NCBI GenBank assembly: GCA_021774625.1
Contig: JAJFIV010000008.1
Span: 175,392 to 239,391, forward strand
DNA: 64,000 bases
Direction: 5' to 3'
From: Alphaproteobacteria bacterium
GTDB taxonomy: Bacteria > Pseudomonadota > Alphaproteobacteria > Sphingomonadales > JAKSBY01
The first letter of the stretch is position 1. Every line of letters begins with the position of its first letter. The notes below the pieces were generated by a model. The model searched no databases. It worked only from the letters and a program-made list of their open reading frames with translations, and was not told the origin of the DNA. Below are positions 21,006 through 26,105 of this stretch, piece by piece. The position numbers were made by a program, and so were the translations under genes.

Positions 21006-21698
21006 ATGACGGAAAAATTAAAGAGCGCAGTGATACTGTTAAGCGGCGGACTGGATTCCGCAACCTGCCTGGCGATTGCCAGGGCGGCCGGCTATGACAA
21101 CCATGCCCTTTCCTTTCGTTACGGACAGCGCCATGCGGTGGAGCTCACCGCGGCCGAAGAAATTGCCGGGACCAGCGGCGCGGCCAGCCATAGGATCGTC
21201 AATATCGATCTCGGAACATTCGGCGGCAGCGCCCTGACGAGCGACATTCCCGTGCCCAAGGGCCGGTCCTGGGCGGCAATGGACGCGGAAATCCCTGTCA
21301 CCTACGTTCCCGCCCGCAATACAGTGTTTCTGTCTTACGCGCTCGGACTTGCGGAAGTGCTCGGCGCATCGAATATCTTCATCGGCGTCAATGCACTTGA
21401 TTATTCCGGTTATCCGGATTGCCGCCCCGCATTCATTGCGGCTTTTGAAAAACTCGCCAATCTTGCCACCAGAGCCGGGGCCGAGGGTGGAACGATGCGC
21501 ATCCAGGCTCCCCTGCTTCATATGACCAAGGCCGACATTATCCTGGAGGGAGCGCGCCTGGGCGTCGATTTCAGCCAGACAATCAGTTGTTATGACCCGG
21601 ATGATAAAGGCCGGGCCTGCGGCAGCTGCGATTCCTGTCTTTTGCGCAAAAGGGGTTTTGCTGAAGCCGGCATTCCAGATCCCACACTCTATAAATAA
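21006..21698 (+). CDS. queC: 7-cyano-7-deazaguanine synthase
   Basis: 230 residues. The ATP-PP loop [12 protein letters not shown] (residues 11-22) and the C-terminal zinc site [24 protein letters not shown] are both intact; [16 protein letters not shown] is the family signature. Converts 7-carboxy-7-deazaguanine to preQ0 with ammonia and ATP in queuosine synthesis. queE and queF lie 3-4 kb downstream, separated by a transporter, a ferredoxin-like protein and a MarR gene on other strands, so the que genes form a locus but not an operon. Confidence 0.96.
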
Positions 21699-21712
21699 CC
21701 CTGAACCAGGGC

Positions 21713-23089
21713 CTATCCGGTTACCGCATCGATCAGGACGATCAGAATGGCGATGGGCGCCAGATAGCGGACAATGATCTGCCAGTAACGATAGCCGCCC
21801 TCTTTGCGGAAAGTCAGGATTTCACGGGTCAGTTTGCTCTTTAATATCCAGCCGGCAAACAGTGTGATCAGCAGCGCGTTAAGCGGCAGAATGATGCTGG
21901 AGACAGCAAAATCCACGGTGCCGAAAATGGATTTATCGGCCAGGCCATCAATCAGGGCCATGGGCCGGACATCGTTCAGAATATTGAAGGAAAAAAGCGA
22001 CGGCAGCCCCAAAACTCCTGCGGCTCCTCCGGCAATGGCGGCAACGCCCAACCGGGGCATATCGGTCAGTTTTTCTTCCAGCCAGCTGACCACCGGCTCC
22101 AGCATCCCGATAGAGGATGTCAGCGCAGCAAAAAACAGCAGGATAAAAAACAGCGGCCCGATAATTTGCCCGCCGGGCATTTCACCAAAACCGATCGGCA
22201 GGGTGACAAAAATCAGCTCCGGCCCTTCCGCCGGGCTAAGGCCGGCGCTAAATACGATGGGGAAGATGGCAAGACCCGCCAGCACCGCGACAACCGTGTC
22301 CGCCGTGCAGATAAAGGCGGCCGCCCGCGGCAAGGAAGTCTTGGACTTCAGATAAGCCCCGTAGGTGATCATGGCGCCCACGCCGATGGCGACCGAGAAA
22401 AAGGCCTGCCCCATGGCCATCAGCACCCCTTTGGAATTTAGCTGGCTGAAATCCGGGTAAAACAGGAAATCCACCGCGCGGCCAAACCCTTCGGTGAATG
22501 CGCCGTAAACAACGAGTATCATCAGCAGTATAAATAACAGCGGCATCATCAGTTTGGTCGCCCATTCGATGCCGCCCTTTATGCCGCGCCCGACAATCCA
22601 CACCGTGATCGCGATAAAGGTGAAGTGGACCAGAGACATCAGGCCAATCCTGTTCTGGAATTCTCCGAACAGGGCGCCTGATGTCTCCGCCGTCAGGCCG
22701 GAAAATTGCCCGGACGCCCCGGCATAAATATAATAAAAGGACCAGCCGGCCACTATGGCGTAATAACTCAGCCCGACAAACGGCGCCAGCACGCTCATCC
22801 AGCCAATGGAACTCCAGAATTTGCTGACTTGCAGATCGCTGGTCAGCCGCCGCATGCTTTCAACGGCACTGGCGCCTCCCAGCTTGCCGATCACCAGCTC
22901 CCCGGCCATGATCGGGAAGGAAATCACCGCGACAAAAATAATATAGATCAGCACAAAGGCGCCGCCGCCATTTTCCCCGGCGATGAAAGGGAAGCGCCAC
23001 AGATTGCCAAGGCCGATGGCCACCCCGACGGCCGCCAGCATAAAGCCCCAGCGCGACGACCACTCCCTGTTTGCGACCTGCCCCGCCAT
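21713..23089 (-). CDS. Sodium-dependent transporter of the NSS (SNF) family
   Basis: 458 residues with about 11 membrane helices, short like the bacterial MhsT/LeuT members. The N-terminal first helix motif VGVAIGLGNLWRFPFIAGENGGGAF is the unwound TM1 that binds Na+ and substrate; SVAIGVGAMITYGAYL is TM6. Imports amino acids or related solutes with Na+, which suits a marine setting. Converges on queC with a 14-bp gap, and is read away from the reductase-like gene upstream (18-bp gap), with which it may be co-transcribed. Confidence 0.92.
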   Translation of the reverse strand: MAGQVANREWSSRWGFMLAAVGVAIGLGNLWRFPFIAGENGGGAFVLIYIIFVAVISFPIMAGELVIGKLGGASAVESMRRLTSDLQVSKFWSSIGWMSVLAPFVGLSYYAIVAGWSFYYIYAGASGQFSGLTAETSGALFGEFQNRIGLMSLVHFTFIAITVWIVGRGIKGGIEWATKLMMPLLFILLMILVVYGAFTEGFGRAVDFLFYPDFSQLNSKGVLMAMGQAFFSVAIGVGAMITYGAYLKSKTSLPRAAAFICTADTVVAVLAGLAIFPIVFSAGLSPAEGPELIFVTLPIGFGEMPGGQIIGPLFFILLFFAALTSSIGMLEPVVSWLEEKLTDMPRLGVAAIAGGAAGVLGLPSLFSFNILNDVRPMALIDGLADKSIFGTVDFAVSSIILPLNALLITLFAGWILKSKLTREILTFRKEGGYRYWQIIVRYLAPIAILIVLIDAVTG

Positions 23090-23107
23090 ATATCCCTCCC
23101 CTTACTG

Positions 23108-24346
23108 TTACTTTTGGATCAGGCCCTGCCACCAGTCTTTGGGCCTGACGCGTCCAGCATGACCTATTTTATCACTGAACCAAAGCCCTAATCGACGCAG
23201 GCTGGTGCCGAGCAGGAACCTGATCAGTTTGGAGGACAGTTTTTTATAGTCCCGGTTATAAGGACAGACGCGCAGGCAGATCGCGCAGTCCGACTTGAGC
23301 CTGATCCAGTAACCGAAGCATTTTTCGCAGTCCGCCGTCCATTTGACCACGCCTTTGATGCTGGACCGGTTATGGACCGTATCATCCGGCGCACCGAACG
23401 GCAGGGCCTTCGGCGGGCAGGCATCGGCACAGCGGGTGCAGATATCGCAGGTTTTGCGCACTCCGATGACTTTCGGCGCATCATGGCTCAGCGGCAGATC
23501 CGTGAAAATTTTTGAAAAACGCACCCTGGGGCCAAATTCTTTGGTGATCACCATCTGATTACGGCCATATTCCCCTAGCCCGGCCTTGATTGCATAGGGA
23601 ATGACCAGGGCGGTGTCATTGAGCGATCCCACCGCCTGATAGCCGAGGTTGCAGATATATTGCGAGAGCTGCGCGGCGAGCCCGGCTTCCCTGGAATAAC
23701 CGAGACCAACCGCTGATCCGGCCAGCGCCGACGGGTATGTCTGGACCAGGCTGTAATCCATGGCGCAGGCGAGAACGATGACGCTGGTCAGCCCGTCCGG
23801 CAGATCGTTGGGCTTTTCCTCCATGGTTTTCGCGTCGGCACGGAATTCATAAACCCAGCGCGGATCATAGGCCGTGATGCCGACCAGATCGGCGCCGAAC
23901 AGCCTGGCGATGCGTTTGATTTCCGCCGCCATTCGCGGCGGATCCGGCGGCTCGATTTTTTCCGGCGCCACCGGCATGGTCGGTTCCAGCGGGTCGAGAA
24001 ACCCTTCCCGCAGGCCGCGGCTTTCCGTATTTCGTGTGGAATAGGCATCCGACACGGCCCAGGCCGCATTGCGCAGGGCAAAATCCTTTTGGGTAAAGCC
24101 CTCTCCCTTGCGCGGGCTGGCTTCCATCCGATAGCTGTCGAAAAAGCCGCGGGCATGATCGGACTTCACGGCGTCATCCCACCAGGACCGGCAGAAGGCG
24201 TCATTGCGCTGGCTGAACCGCTCAAAATCCGCCGTCACGATAAATCCGGCCGCCGCATCCGATGCCGCCTGTTCCGCAGTTATCCCAGGATCAGCCGGCG
24301 GCTTATTGGCGGGCCAGCCCCGTGGCTTATGATTCTCTGTCGTCAT
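23108..24346 (-). CDS. Reductive-dehalogenase-like double [4Fe-4S] protein
   Basis: 412 residues. Residues 130-320 are a corrinoid-type reductase fold related to QueG and RdhA (LFGADLVGITAYDPRWVYE, NDTALVIPYAIKAGLGEYGRNQMVITKEFGPRVRFSKIFTDLPL). Two ferredoxin clusters follow: CDICTRCADACPPKALP and CEKCFGYWIRLKSDCAICLRVCPYNRD. There is no Tat signal and no predicted membrane anchor, unlike respiratory RdhA, so it should be soluble. Possible roles are organohalide reduction or an epoxyqueuosine-type reduction, since queE/queF are near. Divergent from a MarR gene with only 38 bp between starts. Confidence 0.82.
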   Translation of the reverse strand: MTTENHKPRGWPANKPPADPGITAEQAASDAAAGFIVTADFERFSQRNDAFCRSWWDDAVKSDHARGFFDSYRMEASPRKGEGFTQKDFALRNAAWAVSDAYSTRNTESRGLREGFLDPLEPTMPVAPEKIEPPDPPRMAAEIKRIARLFGADLVGITAYDPRWVYEFRADAKTMEEKPNDLPDGLTSVIVLACAMDYSLVQTYPSALAGSAVGLGYSREAGLAAQLSQYICNLGYQAVGSLNDTALVIPYAIKAGLGEYGRNQMVITKEFGPRVRFSKIFTDLPLSHDAPKVIGVRKTCDICTRCADACPPKALPFGAPDDTVHNRSSIKGVVKWTADCEKCFGYWIRLKSDCAICLRVCPYNRDYKKLSSKLIRFLLGTSLRRLGLWFSDKIGHAGRVRPKDWWQGLIQK

Positions 24347-24367
24347 GATTGATTGATAGCAAATTGT

Positions 24368-24381
24368 TTGATATCCATCAA
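24368..24381. promoter_or_regulatory. Probable MarR operator between divergent genes
   Basis: TTGAT-ATCC-ATCAA is a perfect inverted repeat in the 38-bp gap between the reductase-like gene and the MarR gene; a further TTGATTGAT lies 20 bases to the left. Position and symmetry suit autoregulation and joint control of the divergent reductase. Confidence 0.55.
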
Positions 24382-24384
24382 TAT

Positions 24385-24828
24385 ATGAAAAAAACTGCCG
24401 GGATATTAAAGAACGGGCCGCTGGCTGACATGATCGGCTTCCGGTTGCGGATTGCCCAGAGCGCGGCGGAGCGCGCCTTTATGGCGGCAGTGCAGGGCAC
24501 GGCGCCAACCGGTCACTTTACAATTCTCACACTGGTCCGGGAAAATCCTGGCAGCCGTCAGTCCGCGATTGCACGCGCCGCCCATCTTGACCGTTCGAGC
24601 CTCGTGCCGGTGCTGGATCAGTTGGAAAATCTTGGTCTGGTGGAACGCAGGAAGCATAAAACAGACCGCCGCGCCCATGCCCTCTATCTCACGGATGCCG
24701 GACAGGCGGCCCTGAAAAAGCTTGAAAGAGCCGTTATGAAGCTGGAAAAGCAGGTGCGCGAGGCACTGGGCGGAAATCGCACGGAAAGCCTGCTGCGCGA
24801 TCTGGAAGACTTCAGCGCGCTTTTCTGA
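24385..24828 (+). CDS. MarR family transcriptional regulator
   Basis: 147 residues from ATG at 24385; an in-frame TTG at 24349 would place the palindrome inside the gene and is less likely. No clear SD precedes the ATG. Winged helix: GHFTILTLVRENPGSRQSAIARAAHLDRSSLVPVLDQLENLGLVERRKHKTDRRAHALYLTDAG, with recognition helix and a DRR wing tip as in MarR/OhrR. Candidate controller of the divergent reductase-like gene. queE starts 11 bp downstream and may be co-transcribed. Confidence 0.87.
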   Translation: MKKTAGILKNGPLADMIGFRLRIAQSAAERAFMAAVQGTAPTGHFTILTLVRENPGSRQSAIARAAHLDRSSLVPVLDQLENLGLVERRKHKTDRRAHALYLTDAGQAALKKLERAVMKLEKQVREALGGNRTESLLRDLEDFSALF

Positions 24829-24839
24829 TACGGCAAGCT

Positions 24840-25481
24840 ATGACCTACAGCGTCAAATCTGTTTTCTATACCCTGCAGGGCGAAGGCGCGCAGACCGGAC
24901 GGCCTTCGGTCTTTCTGCGTTTTGCCGGCTGCAATCTGTGGTCCGGGCTGGAAAAGGACCGGACGGATGCGGTGTGTCAATTCTGCGATACGGATTTTGT
25001 CGGGACGGATGGCGAAGGCGGCGGCAAATTCAGGACGGCCGGCGAACTGGCGGACAAGGTTGCCGCAACCTGGCGGCAAAATGCCAGTGGGGATACCTTG
25101 CCCTATGTGGTCTGCACCGGCGGCGAACCGCTGCTTCAGCTAGACCGGCCGCTTATTGACGCGCTGCATGCACACCGCTTTGAAATCGCCATTGAAACCA
25201 ACGGCACCATCAAGGCCCCGGACGATATTGACTGGATCTGCGTCAGCCCCAAGGCGGACGCGCCGCTTTTACAAACATCCGGCCATGAGCTTAAACTGGT
25301 CTACCCGCAGGAAACAGCCCCGCCGGAGCGCTTCACCCCTCTCAATTTCCGCCATTTCTTCCTTCAGCCCATGGATGGCCCGCGGCGGACACAGAATATA
25401 TGTCTTACCGCCAGATATTGCCGGACCAACCCGCAATGGCGCATCAGCCTGCAAACCCACAAGATGATCGATATCGAATGA
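24840..25481 (+). CDS. queE: 7-carboxy-7-deazaguanine synthase
   Basis: 213 residues. Radical-SAM protein with the QueE substrate loop YTLQGEGAQTGRPSVFLRFAGCN and the atypical cluster motif CNLWSGLEK...VCQFCDTDF: one Cys, a 14-residue insert, then CxxC. VCTGGEPLLQ is the SAM-binding motif and LQPMDGP...NPQWRISLQTHKMIDIE the C-terminal signature. Makes CDG from carboxytetrahydropterin, with a [4Fe-4S] cluster and Mg2+. Confidence 0.95.
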   Translation: MTYSVKSVFYTLQGEGAQTGRPSVFLRFAGCNLWSGLEKDRTDAVCQFCDTDFVGTDGEGGGKFRTAGELADKVAATWRQNASGDTLPYVVCTGGEPLLQLDRPLIDALHAHRFEIAIETNGTIKAPDDIDWICVSPKADAPLLQTSGHELKLVYPQETAPPERFTPLNFRHFFLQPMDGPRRTQNICLTARYCRTNPQWRISLQTHKMIDIE

Positions 25482-25487
25482 TGGTTT

Positions 25488-25630
25488 GATTCGTTCGGCA
25501 GCCGCCCTGCGATACACCCTCACGCCGTTCGGGCACTCAGGGCGAGCGGTGCGCGTGTTTCTCCCATTCGGGCTGAGTGAGGCGAAGCCTCGTATCGAAG
25601 CCCGGGTGCCAAAGTGAACGGATCGAAGGA
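25488..25630. repeat. Palindromic dispersed-repeat-like element (REP type)
   Basis: A non-coding segment with nested complementary arms: GATAC (25511) with GTATC (25592), CACTCAG (25534) with CTGAGTG (25573), and outer arms around GGCAGCCG and CGGGTGCC. The text TTCGATACGAGGCTTCGCCTCACTCAG (read on the minus strand, in parts) resembles the repeats that are dispersed in hundreds of copies in some alphaproteobacterial genomes. It fills the queE-queF gap. Only one copy is in this window, so dispersal is inferred. Confidence 0.6.
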
Positions 25631-25640
25631 TGGAATTACC

Positions 25641-26105
25641 TTAACCCCGGCCGCGGTAATTTTCGACGCCGGGTTCCGGTATCCAGACGTCCTTCGGTGA
25701 CTCACCGGTCTGATAAAACACATCGATGGGAATGCCGCCCCTGGGATACCAGTAACCGGCAATGCGCAGCCATTTTGGTTTGATTTCCCGAGCAATACGG
25801 ACGGCGATGCCAACCGTGCAATCCTCATGGAAGGCCGCGTGGTTACGAAAGGCGCCCAGGAAAAGCTTCAGGGATTTGCTTTCCAGAATCAGTTGATCCG
25901 GCACATAGTCCAGCACCAGATGGGCAAAATCCGGCTGGCCGGTAACCGGACACAGCGATGTGAATTCGGGACAGGTGAAACGTACGCAATAATCCCGGTC
26001 CATGTGCGGGTTGGCAACGGCTTCCAGCCGCGACTGATCGGGACTGTCCGCAATGGCGGCGGGCCGGCCAAGCTGCGAGAGATTTTCGTTCAAATCCTTG
26101 CTCAT
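25641..26105 (-). CDS. queF: NADPH-dependent 7-cyano-7-deazaguanine reductase
   Basis: 154 residues, the short unimodular QueF. The active-site Cys52 is in [15 protein letters not shown] with the neighbouring Asp59, the QueF signature [20 protein letters not shown] follows, and the NADPH-binding region is intact. Reduces preQ0 to preQ1, the free base inserted into tRNA. Convergent with queE, with a palindromic repeat in the gap, and preceded by a small 57-residue gene on the same strand. Confidence 0.96.

Follow-up and report, generated by a model that had tools for sequence, protein, structure and literature searches.

The described enzymes closest to the protein considered here, likened by iron-sulfur motifs and their spacing, are two cytosolic reductive dehalogenases (RdhA) with a single core domain and no twin-arginine translocation (Tat) signal. 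According to published work, Ros_A3X954 from Roseobacter sp. MED193 converts 2,6-dibromophenol to 2-bromophenol in vitro and is inactivated by oxygen, carries the motifs CDICTKCADACP at position 283 and CAICMRVCP at position 337, and was tried on six organohalides with no amino acid among them; A0A2T7UTL8 from Pararhodobacter aggregans, 72.2% identical to Ros_A3X954, reduces 2,4,6-triiodophenol (PMC13101508). Gene-neighbourhood terms looked for in that paper were absent. Catabolic enzymes of the NpRdhA/BhbA type possess a vestigial core domain at the N terminus and, in some cases, a C-terminal reductase, and the characterised catabolic RdhAs are described as specific for ortho-halophenols (PMC10463259). 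The present analysis concerns an rdhA-like gene in a window of 64,000 nucleotides (the whole stretch of DNA analysed, contig JAJFIV010000008.1) from an alphaproteobacterial genome of the order Sphingomonadales, together with a divergent MarR-family regulator gene and a Na+-dependent symporter gene (Table 1). The product of rdhA is very probably a cytosolic, cobalamin-dependent reductive dehalogenase, judging from its sequence and a structure model. Taking enzyme class, regulation and import jointly, we lean towards a cytosolic RdhA controlled by MarR and supplied with an imported aromatic substrate. What is new here is the pairing of rdhA with a symporter gene and the occurrence of kynureninase or tryptophan dioxygenase genes as neighbours in nine of 109 rdhA loci.

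Against the profile TIGR02486 the window RdhA scored 157.8 bits (E = 5.6e-46), 2.6 bits below the curated cut-off of 160.35, and against PF13486 it scored 23.1 bits (E = 5e-5), just below the cut-off of 24.3. Searches with phmmer against chains of the Protein Data Bank (PDB) gave the RdhA 8q4h (3.2e-48), PceA 4uqu (1e-41), NpRdhA (3.5e-26) and the epoxyqueuosine reductase QueG (1.2e-9). None of the eight cluster cysteines varies across an 81-row alignment. Both iron-sulfur patterns, CxxCxxCxxxCP and CxxCxxxCP, were matched by 107 of 109 homologues, 94 of which share a motif spacing of 54 residues. The same spacing is published for the single-core, Tat-less Ros_A3X954, whose motifs (CDICTKCADACP and CAICMRVCP) agree nearly letter for letter with those of the window protein (CDICTRCADACP and CAICLRVCP), and the window protein belongs to a known kind of cytosolic RdhA. 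A first structure model, built from 18 sequences, was poor (pLDDT, the predicted local distance difference test score, of 63.6) and was discarded. The model from the 81-row alignment reached a pLDDT of 92.2 and a predicted template-modelling score of 0.91, with Z scores of 42.9 to RdhA 8q4h, 40.2 to PceA, 34.1 to NpRdhA and 15.8 to QueG; matches at Z of 7 or less (MMACHC, CblD and nitroreductases; VIA-align) were not taken as kinship. In an ungapped stretch of the alignment with PceA, Tyr217, Asn243 and Arg276 correspond to its chain positions 246, 272 and 305, which we take to be the catalytic Tyr, Asn and Arg of PceA. Stronger homology to RdhA than to QueG, two 4Fe-4S motifs and an RdhA fold with the catalytic Tyr and Arg place the protein in the RdhA superfamily. 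The initial annotation had described a double [4Fe-4S] protein of the RdhA or QueG kind without a Tat signal, which agrees with these results, and had raised the matter of a cobalamin pocket; the model confidently predicts an RdhA fold of the B12-binding type in which the catalytic Tyr, Asn and Arg are kept. The genome also encodes a cobalamin adenosyltransferase and QueG, a member of a B12-dependent family.

No simple twin-arginine pattern was found within the N-terminal 60 residues of either the window RdhA or any of 108 other homologues, and because the highest 19-residue hydropathy is 1.3, no transmembrane segment is expected. The respiratory enzymes PceA and 8q4h share with the window protein their fold (Z 40-43) and the catalytic Tyr/Asn/Arg, but the window RdhA has neither a Tat signal nor an rdhB gene, and its neighbours are a symporter gene at 18 bp and marR at 38 bp. 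Membership of the respiratory RdhAs was ruled out because there is no twin-arginine pattern, no hydrophobic segment and no room for an adjoining rdhB, the adjoining genes being those for the symporter and MarR. With NpRdhA, BhbA and JtRdhA it shares a Tat-less cytosolic RdhA core (Z 34.1 to NpRdhA over 336 residues). It aligns with NpRdhA residues 268-615 only, however, and with 412 residues it lacks the extra N-terminal vestigial core and the reductase domain of that type (PMC10463259), so that membership of this group was also ruled out.

One scan of species genomes found 364 relatives, which are widely spread, and a scan of 72,556 plasmid records (E 1e-30) gave a single match, a Sulfurospirillum RdhA at 28% identity. 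A second RdhA-like protein of the same genome lies outside the window (L046:8173-9153, minus strand, contig C23); it has 326 residues, scores 97.8 bits against TIGR02486 and is 36% identical to the window RdhA across the core, with Tyr and Arg kept and Asn not. In the 2.4-Mb genome G008, of the same order, the window RdhA has 17 matches, many of them in tandem runs of frames of about 350 residues (contigs C3 and C11). Two homologues, G780:C487 and G787:C150, each contain one in-frame TGA, which could reflect gene decay or a fault in the assembly.

The initial annotation rightly placed rdhA next to queuosine genes. From 21006 to 26105 the window holds a queC, queE and queF-II cluster interrupted by the marR-rdhA-symporter group, an arrangement that looks like an insertion of this group at the junction of queC and queE. 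The annotation accordingly offered, as one of two hypotheses, a reductase tied to queuosine chemistry, that is, a corrinoid enzyme that is QueG-like or a QueG paralogue. The position of rdhA in the queC-queE interval, with queF nearby, speaks for such a role, as does a weak similarity to QueG, with which the protein shares its superfamily and part of its core. The similarity amounts to 56.1 bits against a TIGR00276 cut-off of 200, however, and a separate queG, whose existence had been left to be checked, was found on another contig of the same genome at 452.6 bits. Moreover, the model lies at Z 15.8 to QueG as against 42.9 to RdhA, and blastp searches (E 1e-8) with QueC, QueE and QueF of the window found no homologue in the visible flanks of 108 other rdhA loci. 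The queuosine neighbourhood is local to this genome, and because of the separate queG, the low fold match to QueG and the absence of que genes at the other loci the queuosine role was rejected as very improbable.

The MarR-family gene is divergent from rdhA, as had been annotated, across a gap of 38 bp (24347-24384). Its product, taken in profile searches as 144 residues from a start at 24394, is assigned to the family by a winged-helix domain above the PF01047 cut-off and by a palindromic site beside its own gene. The repeat TTGAT-N4-ATCAA that the initial annotation pointed out in this gap does occur at 24368-24381. Alone it is weak, because mononucleotide shuffles of the gap yield an inverted repeat with 5-bp arms in 37% of cases when the spacer is at most 8 and in 6.8% when it is exactly 4, and as an operator it was replaced by an overlapping 18-bp imperfect palindrome (24364-24381). 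The pattern for the latter was taken from the relative L037, whose marR-rdhA gap contains the perfect palindrome TTGTTTGATATCAAACAA; at up to 3 mismatches it has one match in the window, with 0.02 expected. Among 18 loci scanned, the site lies upstream of rdhA with no mismatch in L037, with 2 in the window and with 3 each in L038, L049, L050, L058 and L039, so that it is common to the window and two other genera of the order, L039 being from another family. None was found at up to 4 mismatches in the other 11, including L098 and L048; the latter is the same genome as L193 and has no MarR at rdhA and no palindrome. The whole genome holds one further site with 3 mismatches, as many as a reversed control pattern gives, and no site of a wider MarR regulon at 2 mismatches or fewer besides 24364-24381. 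A close MarR homologue is oriented divergently to rdhA in L037, L038, L191 and L192, all from genus g23 of the same order, and a weaker one (54.8 bits) is found in L098. From these sequence comparisons the 18-bp palindrome is likely to be the MarR operator, a predicted binding site, and control of rdhA by the divergent MarR appears quite probable.

The initial annotation had rdhA and marR correct, and overlooked a gene of the SNF/NSS family on the same strand as rdhA. It starts 18 bp past the rdhA stop, and the two genes likely form an operon. The encoded symporter scores 166.8 bits against PF00209 (gathering score 27), and its nearest PDB entry is 4us3 (1.8e-90, 307.5 bits, 452 residues aligned), the next best reaching 141.6 bits. 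We take 4us3 to be MhsT, which transports hydrophobic amino acids, tryptophan among them, and whose structure was determined with tryptophan. By this alignment the window symporter resembles an MhsT-type bacterial NSS transporter and is a putative importer of amino acids.

Table 1. Features of the rdhA region, in positions of the window.
Feature	Position	Strand	Evidence or remark
rdhA-like gene, cytosolic single-core reductive dehalogenase (probable), 412 aa, ATG start	23108..24346	(-)	TIGR02486, phmmer against PDB, structure model
SNF/NSS-family Na+-dependent symporter gene	21713..23089	(-)	PF00209 1.1e-48; NF037979 103.2 bits (cut-off 50)
MarR-family regulator gene, divergent from rdhA	24385..24828, first ATG 24385	(+)	PF01047 50.1 bits (cut-off 24.6)
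Candidate MarR operator TTGTTTGATATCCATCAA, 18-bp imperfect palindrome	24364..24381	no strand	2 mismatches to the perfect L037 palindrome; encloses TTGAT-N4-ATCAA
First 4Fe-4S motif CDICTRCADACP, residues 300-311	23414..23449	(-)	four cysteines invariant in 81 alignment rows
CAICLRVCP motif of the second cluster, residues 354-362, preceded by C343	23261..23287	(-)	C343, C354, C357 and C361 invariant in 81 rows
Tyr217	23696..23698	(-)	aligns with PceA chain position 246; invariant in 18 orthologues and 81 rows
Asn243	23618..23620	(-)	aligns with PceA chain position 272; invariant in 18 orthologues, at least 90% of 81 rows
Arg276	23519..23521	(-)	aligns with PceA chain position 305; invariant in 18 orthologues and 81 rows
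queC	21006-21698		profile search
queE	24840-25481		profile search
queF-II	25641-26105		profile search

The neighbourhoods of related rdhA genes were compared in 109 loci: 80 named loci (the best 80 of the 364 relatives), 10 from the order, the window, 13 from a class sample and 5 more. The class sample was an even draw of 17 loci, from which four duplicates were dropped; 24 of the 109 loci show fewer than three genes on a side. Eight loci show tryptophan 2,3-dioxygenase in view, seven show kynureninase, and nine show at least one of the two (hereafter kynurenine-linked loci). The order rdhA-kynU-kynA is found in L061, L062, L063 and L081 and rdhA-kynU in L060, and kynA-kynU is divergent from rdhA in L174 and L189. 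L061 comes from a Rhodospirillaceae metagenome-assembled genome and is identical to the locus of genome G673, which shares its class with the genome under study and so places the latter among the Alphaproteobacteria. In L061 the kynureninase and dioxygenase profiles gave 322.1 and 421.2 bits (cut-offs 246.4 and 390.7), and the corresponding proteins were also above cut-off in L174 (315.4 and 404.8), as was the dioxygenase of L189 (393.1). Matches of L099 and L107 to the kynureninase hidden Markov model, at 83.0 and 81.4 bits, were left uncounted; the seven others score at least 684. In the gammaproteobacterial loci L122 and L125, rdhA is followed in turn by genes of penicillin-acylase-like, esterase-like and ornithine-cyclodeaminase-family proteins, the symporter, a hydrolase and a dioxygenase; the hydrolase has the motif HGGYW, presumably typical of kynurenine formamidases.

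The nine kynurenine-linked rows fall into three clades of a 110-row tree and force at least four label changes, one of them traceable to L190, where the contig breaks off within rdhA. The five rows nearest to the window RdhA by path are all kynurenine-linked. Of the 17 loci of the class sample, 2 are kynurenine-linked, with about 0.05-0.07 expected (rough P 0.001-0.002), and for all 109 loci 0.3-0.4 are expected, with three clades observed (rough P 0.004-0.009). The expectations assume that each genome has 3,000-4,000 genes and a single dioxygenase, and the P values are rough in that the named loci are a non-random sample and the hypothesis was itself derived from these data. The genome under study has a kynureninase just over the cut-off (259.5 bits, with 246.4 required).

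Because the symporter gene lies 18 bp from rdhA and kynurenine-linked rdhA genes occur in three clades, we tentatively propose a halogenated aromatic amino acid, or an early product of one such as a kynurenine-type compound, as the substrate. Within this class the gene context favours tryptophan/kynurenine over tyrosine. More doubtful still is the specific version in which halogenated tryptophans, or the kynurenine and anthranilate products of these, are what the enzyme naturally acts on, served in this genome by their own Na+ symporter and MarR sensor. The other branch of the initial annotation, an inducible dehalogenase whose MarR senses a phenolic ligand, stands as far as the dehalogenase is concerned, given the RdhA-like sequence, residues and fold and the Ros_A3X954-like Fe-S motifs, and also for control by MarR, although at another palindrome. 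As to the ligand, the gene context points to an amino-acid or kynurenine-type substrate at least as much as to a phenolic one. An enzyme for the catabolism or detoxification of halophenols such as bromophenol, with MarR sensing the halophenol, the symporter unrelated and the tryptophan neighbours belonging to other branches, nevertheless draws support from published work: the motifs and spacing match those of Ros_A3X954, active on 2,6-dibromophenol, the Pararhodobacter relative reduces 2,4,6-triiodophenol, and the characterised catabolic RdhAs are described as ortho-halophenol-specific (PMC10463259). A 3-phenylpropionate-type gene of the major facilitator superfamily (MFS) beside rdhA in four of the five g23 loci read fits the same explanation. 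Yet no phenol-degradation gene was recognised beside the window rdhA, the sole same-strand partner encodes an amino-acid-type symporter, linkage to tryptophan genes recurs in three clades, and the six organohalides reported for Ros_A3X954 leave amino acids out of the comparison. We regard a halophenol substrate as rather unlikely. A reductase of the RdhA fold with B12 and Fe-S clusters that acts on a bond other than carbon-halogen, for example during the breakdown of amino acids or indole, would accord with the wide spread and varied amino-acid contexts of the 364 relatives, with agmatinase genes beside rdhA (12 of 91 loci) and with a thiamine diphosphate (ThDP) decarboxylase coupled to rdhA in L068; it is improbable, since the Tyr/Asn/Arg of PceA are retained and Ros_A3X954, of the same type, is a proven debrominase (PMC13101508).

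Several observations weigh against the amino-acid or kynurenine proposal and its regulatory part. Four SNF genes are present in the genome, so that the symporter link alone is weak, and of the 109 loci only eight have one close to rdhA, namely the window, five loci of genus g19, L122 and L125, with those of g19 lying within a cluster of other amino-acid genes. Neither dioxygenase nor kynureninase is present in the flanks in view of 100 of the 109 loci, and no tryptophan gene adjoins the window rdhA. The dioxygenase of L122 and L125 is cut by the locus end, the L122 copy scoring 237.6 bits, below the cut-off, and the dioxygenase-family protein of the genome under study is divergent (123.4 bits, cut-off 390.7). 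The branch of the window row is long and the fork from which it arises lacks support, so that the tree gives it no sister group. The operator pattern came from a relative and was not found blind. The two known members of the single-core clade were assayed with halophenols. The MFS gene that follows rdhA in L037, L038, L191 and L193 (234 bits, below a cut-off of 259) and the agmatinase/arginase-family gene directly adjoining rdhA elsewhere point to other contexts; the agmatinase, zwf-pgl-pgi and ThDP decarboxylase neighbours are left unexplained by the reading favoured here.

On the favoured reading, the divergent MarR repressor would keep rdhA off. A halogenated aromatic would enter the cell, presumably through the symporter, whose family is observed, and a ligand would release MarR from the 18-bp palindrome, an observed site at which binding is predicted; symporter and RdhA would then be made. 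Using base-off B12 and two 4Fe-4S clusters, RdhA would swap the aromatic halogen for hydrogen, with electrons probably from a general ferredoxin or flavodoxin (it carries no fused dedicated reductase), and the dehalogenated product would pass into ordinary catabolism. For example, 7-halotryptophan would give 3-haloanthranilate, in which the halogen is ortho to the amino group, comparable to the ortho-halophenols accepted by known enzymes. Bromotryptophan is a plausible marine substrate; 5-bromotryptophan has been identified in marine plankton exometabolomes (PMC12954841). Literature searches found no paper combining reductive dehalogenase with kynureninase and tryptophan; among the matches listed for bromotryptophan and bromoindole, reductive dehalogenase was absent, in a further set of listed matches no title or abstract opening described such an enzyme, no title among the matches of another search dealt with bacterial halotyrosine catabolism, and a paper on macroalgal halogens did not mention reductive dehalogenase. 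Single-core cytosolic RdhAs are common in marine Alphaproteobacteria, and for the two published members considered here the reported activities are on halophenols only; the neighbourhoods suggest a concrete substrate class, halogenated tryptophan and its catabolites. If this holds, aerobic marine bacteria could open brominated or chlorinated tryptophan to the kynurenine pathway, natural organobromine turnover would be tied to amino-acid catabolism, and these enzymes would gain a physiological role.

Some further neighbours of rdhA were recorded. The agmatinase-neighbour loci are L085, L092, L095, L101, L111, L112, L113, L119, L128, L133, L134 and L139, the L111 protein scoring 175.3 bits, just above the cut-off of 174.3. 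A two-subunit ThDP decarboxylase resembling sulfopyruvate decarboxylase lies beside rdhA in L068 (6926-9221), where it has a start/stop overlap with rdhA and a beta subunit at 229.2 bits (cut-off 221.5); in L060-L063 and L081 the pair lies at +4 to +6, inside the kynurenine operons. Genes named by eye as zwf, pgl, pgi and cobalamin-like in Rhodobacteraceae were not used as functional evidence because they looked like common chromosomal order. In the genome under study, a divergent tryptophan-dioxygenase-family protein of 252 residues (L179:7332-8087, contig C28) is followed by short-chain-reductase-like and folB-like genes, also named by eye, and not by kynurenine genes. In genus g19 (L040-L045), a gene that clusters by sequence with a CvfB-like S1-domain RNA-binding protein, its profile checked in L041, lies immediately after rdhA in all six loci.

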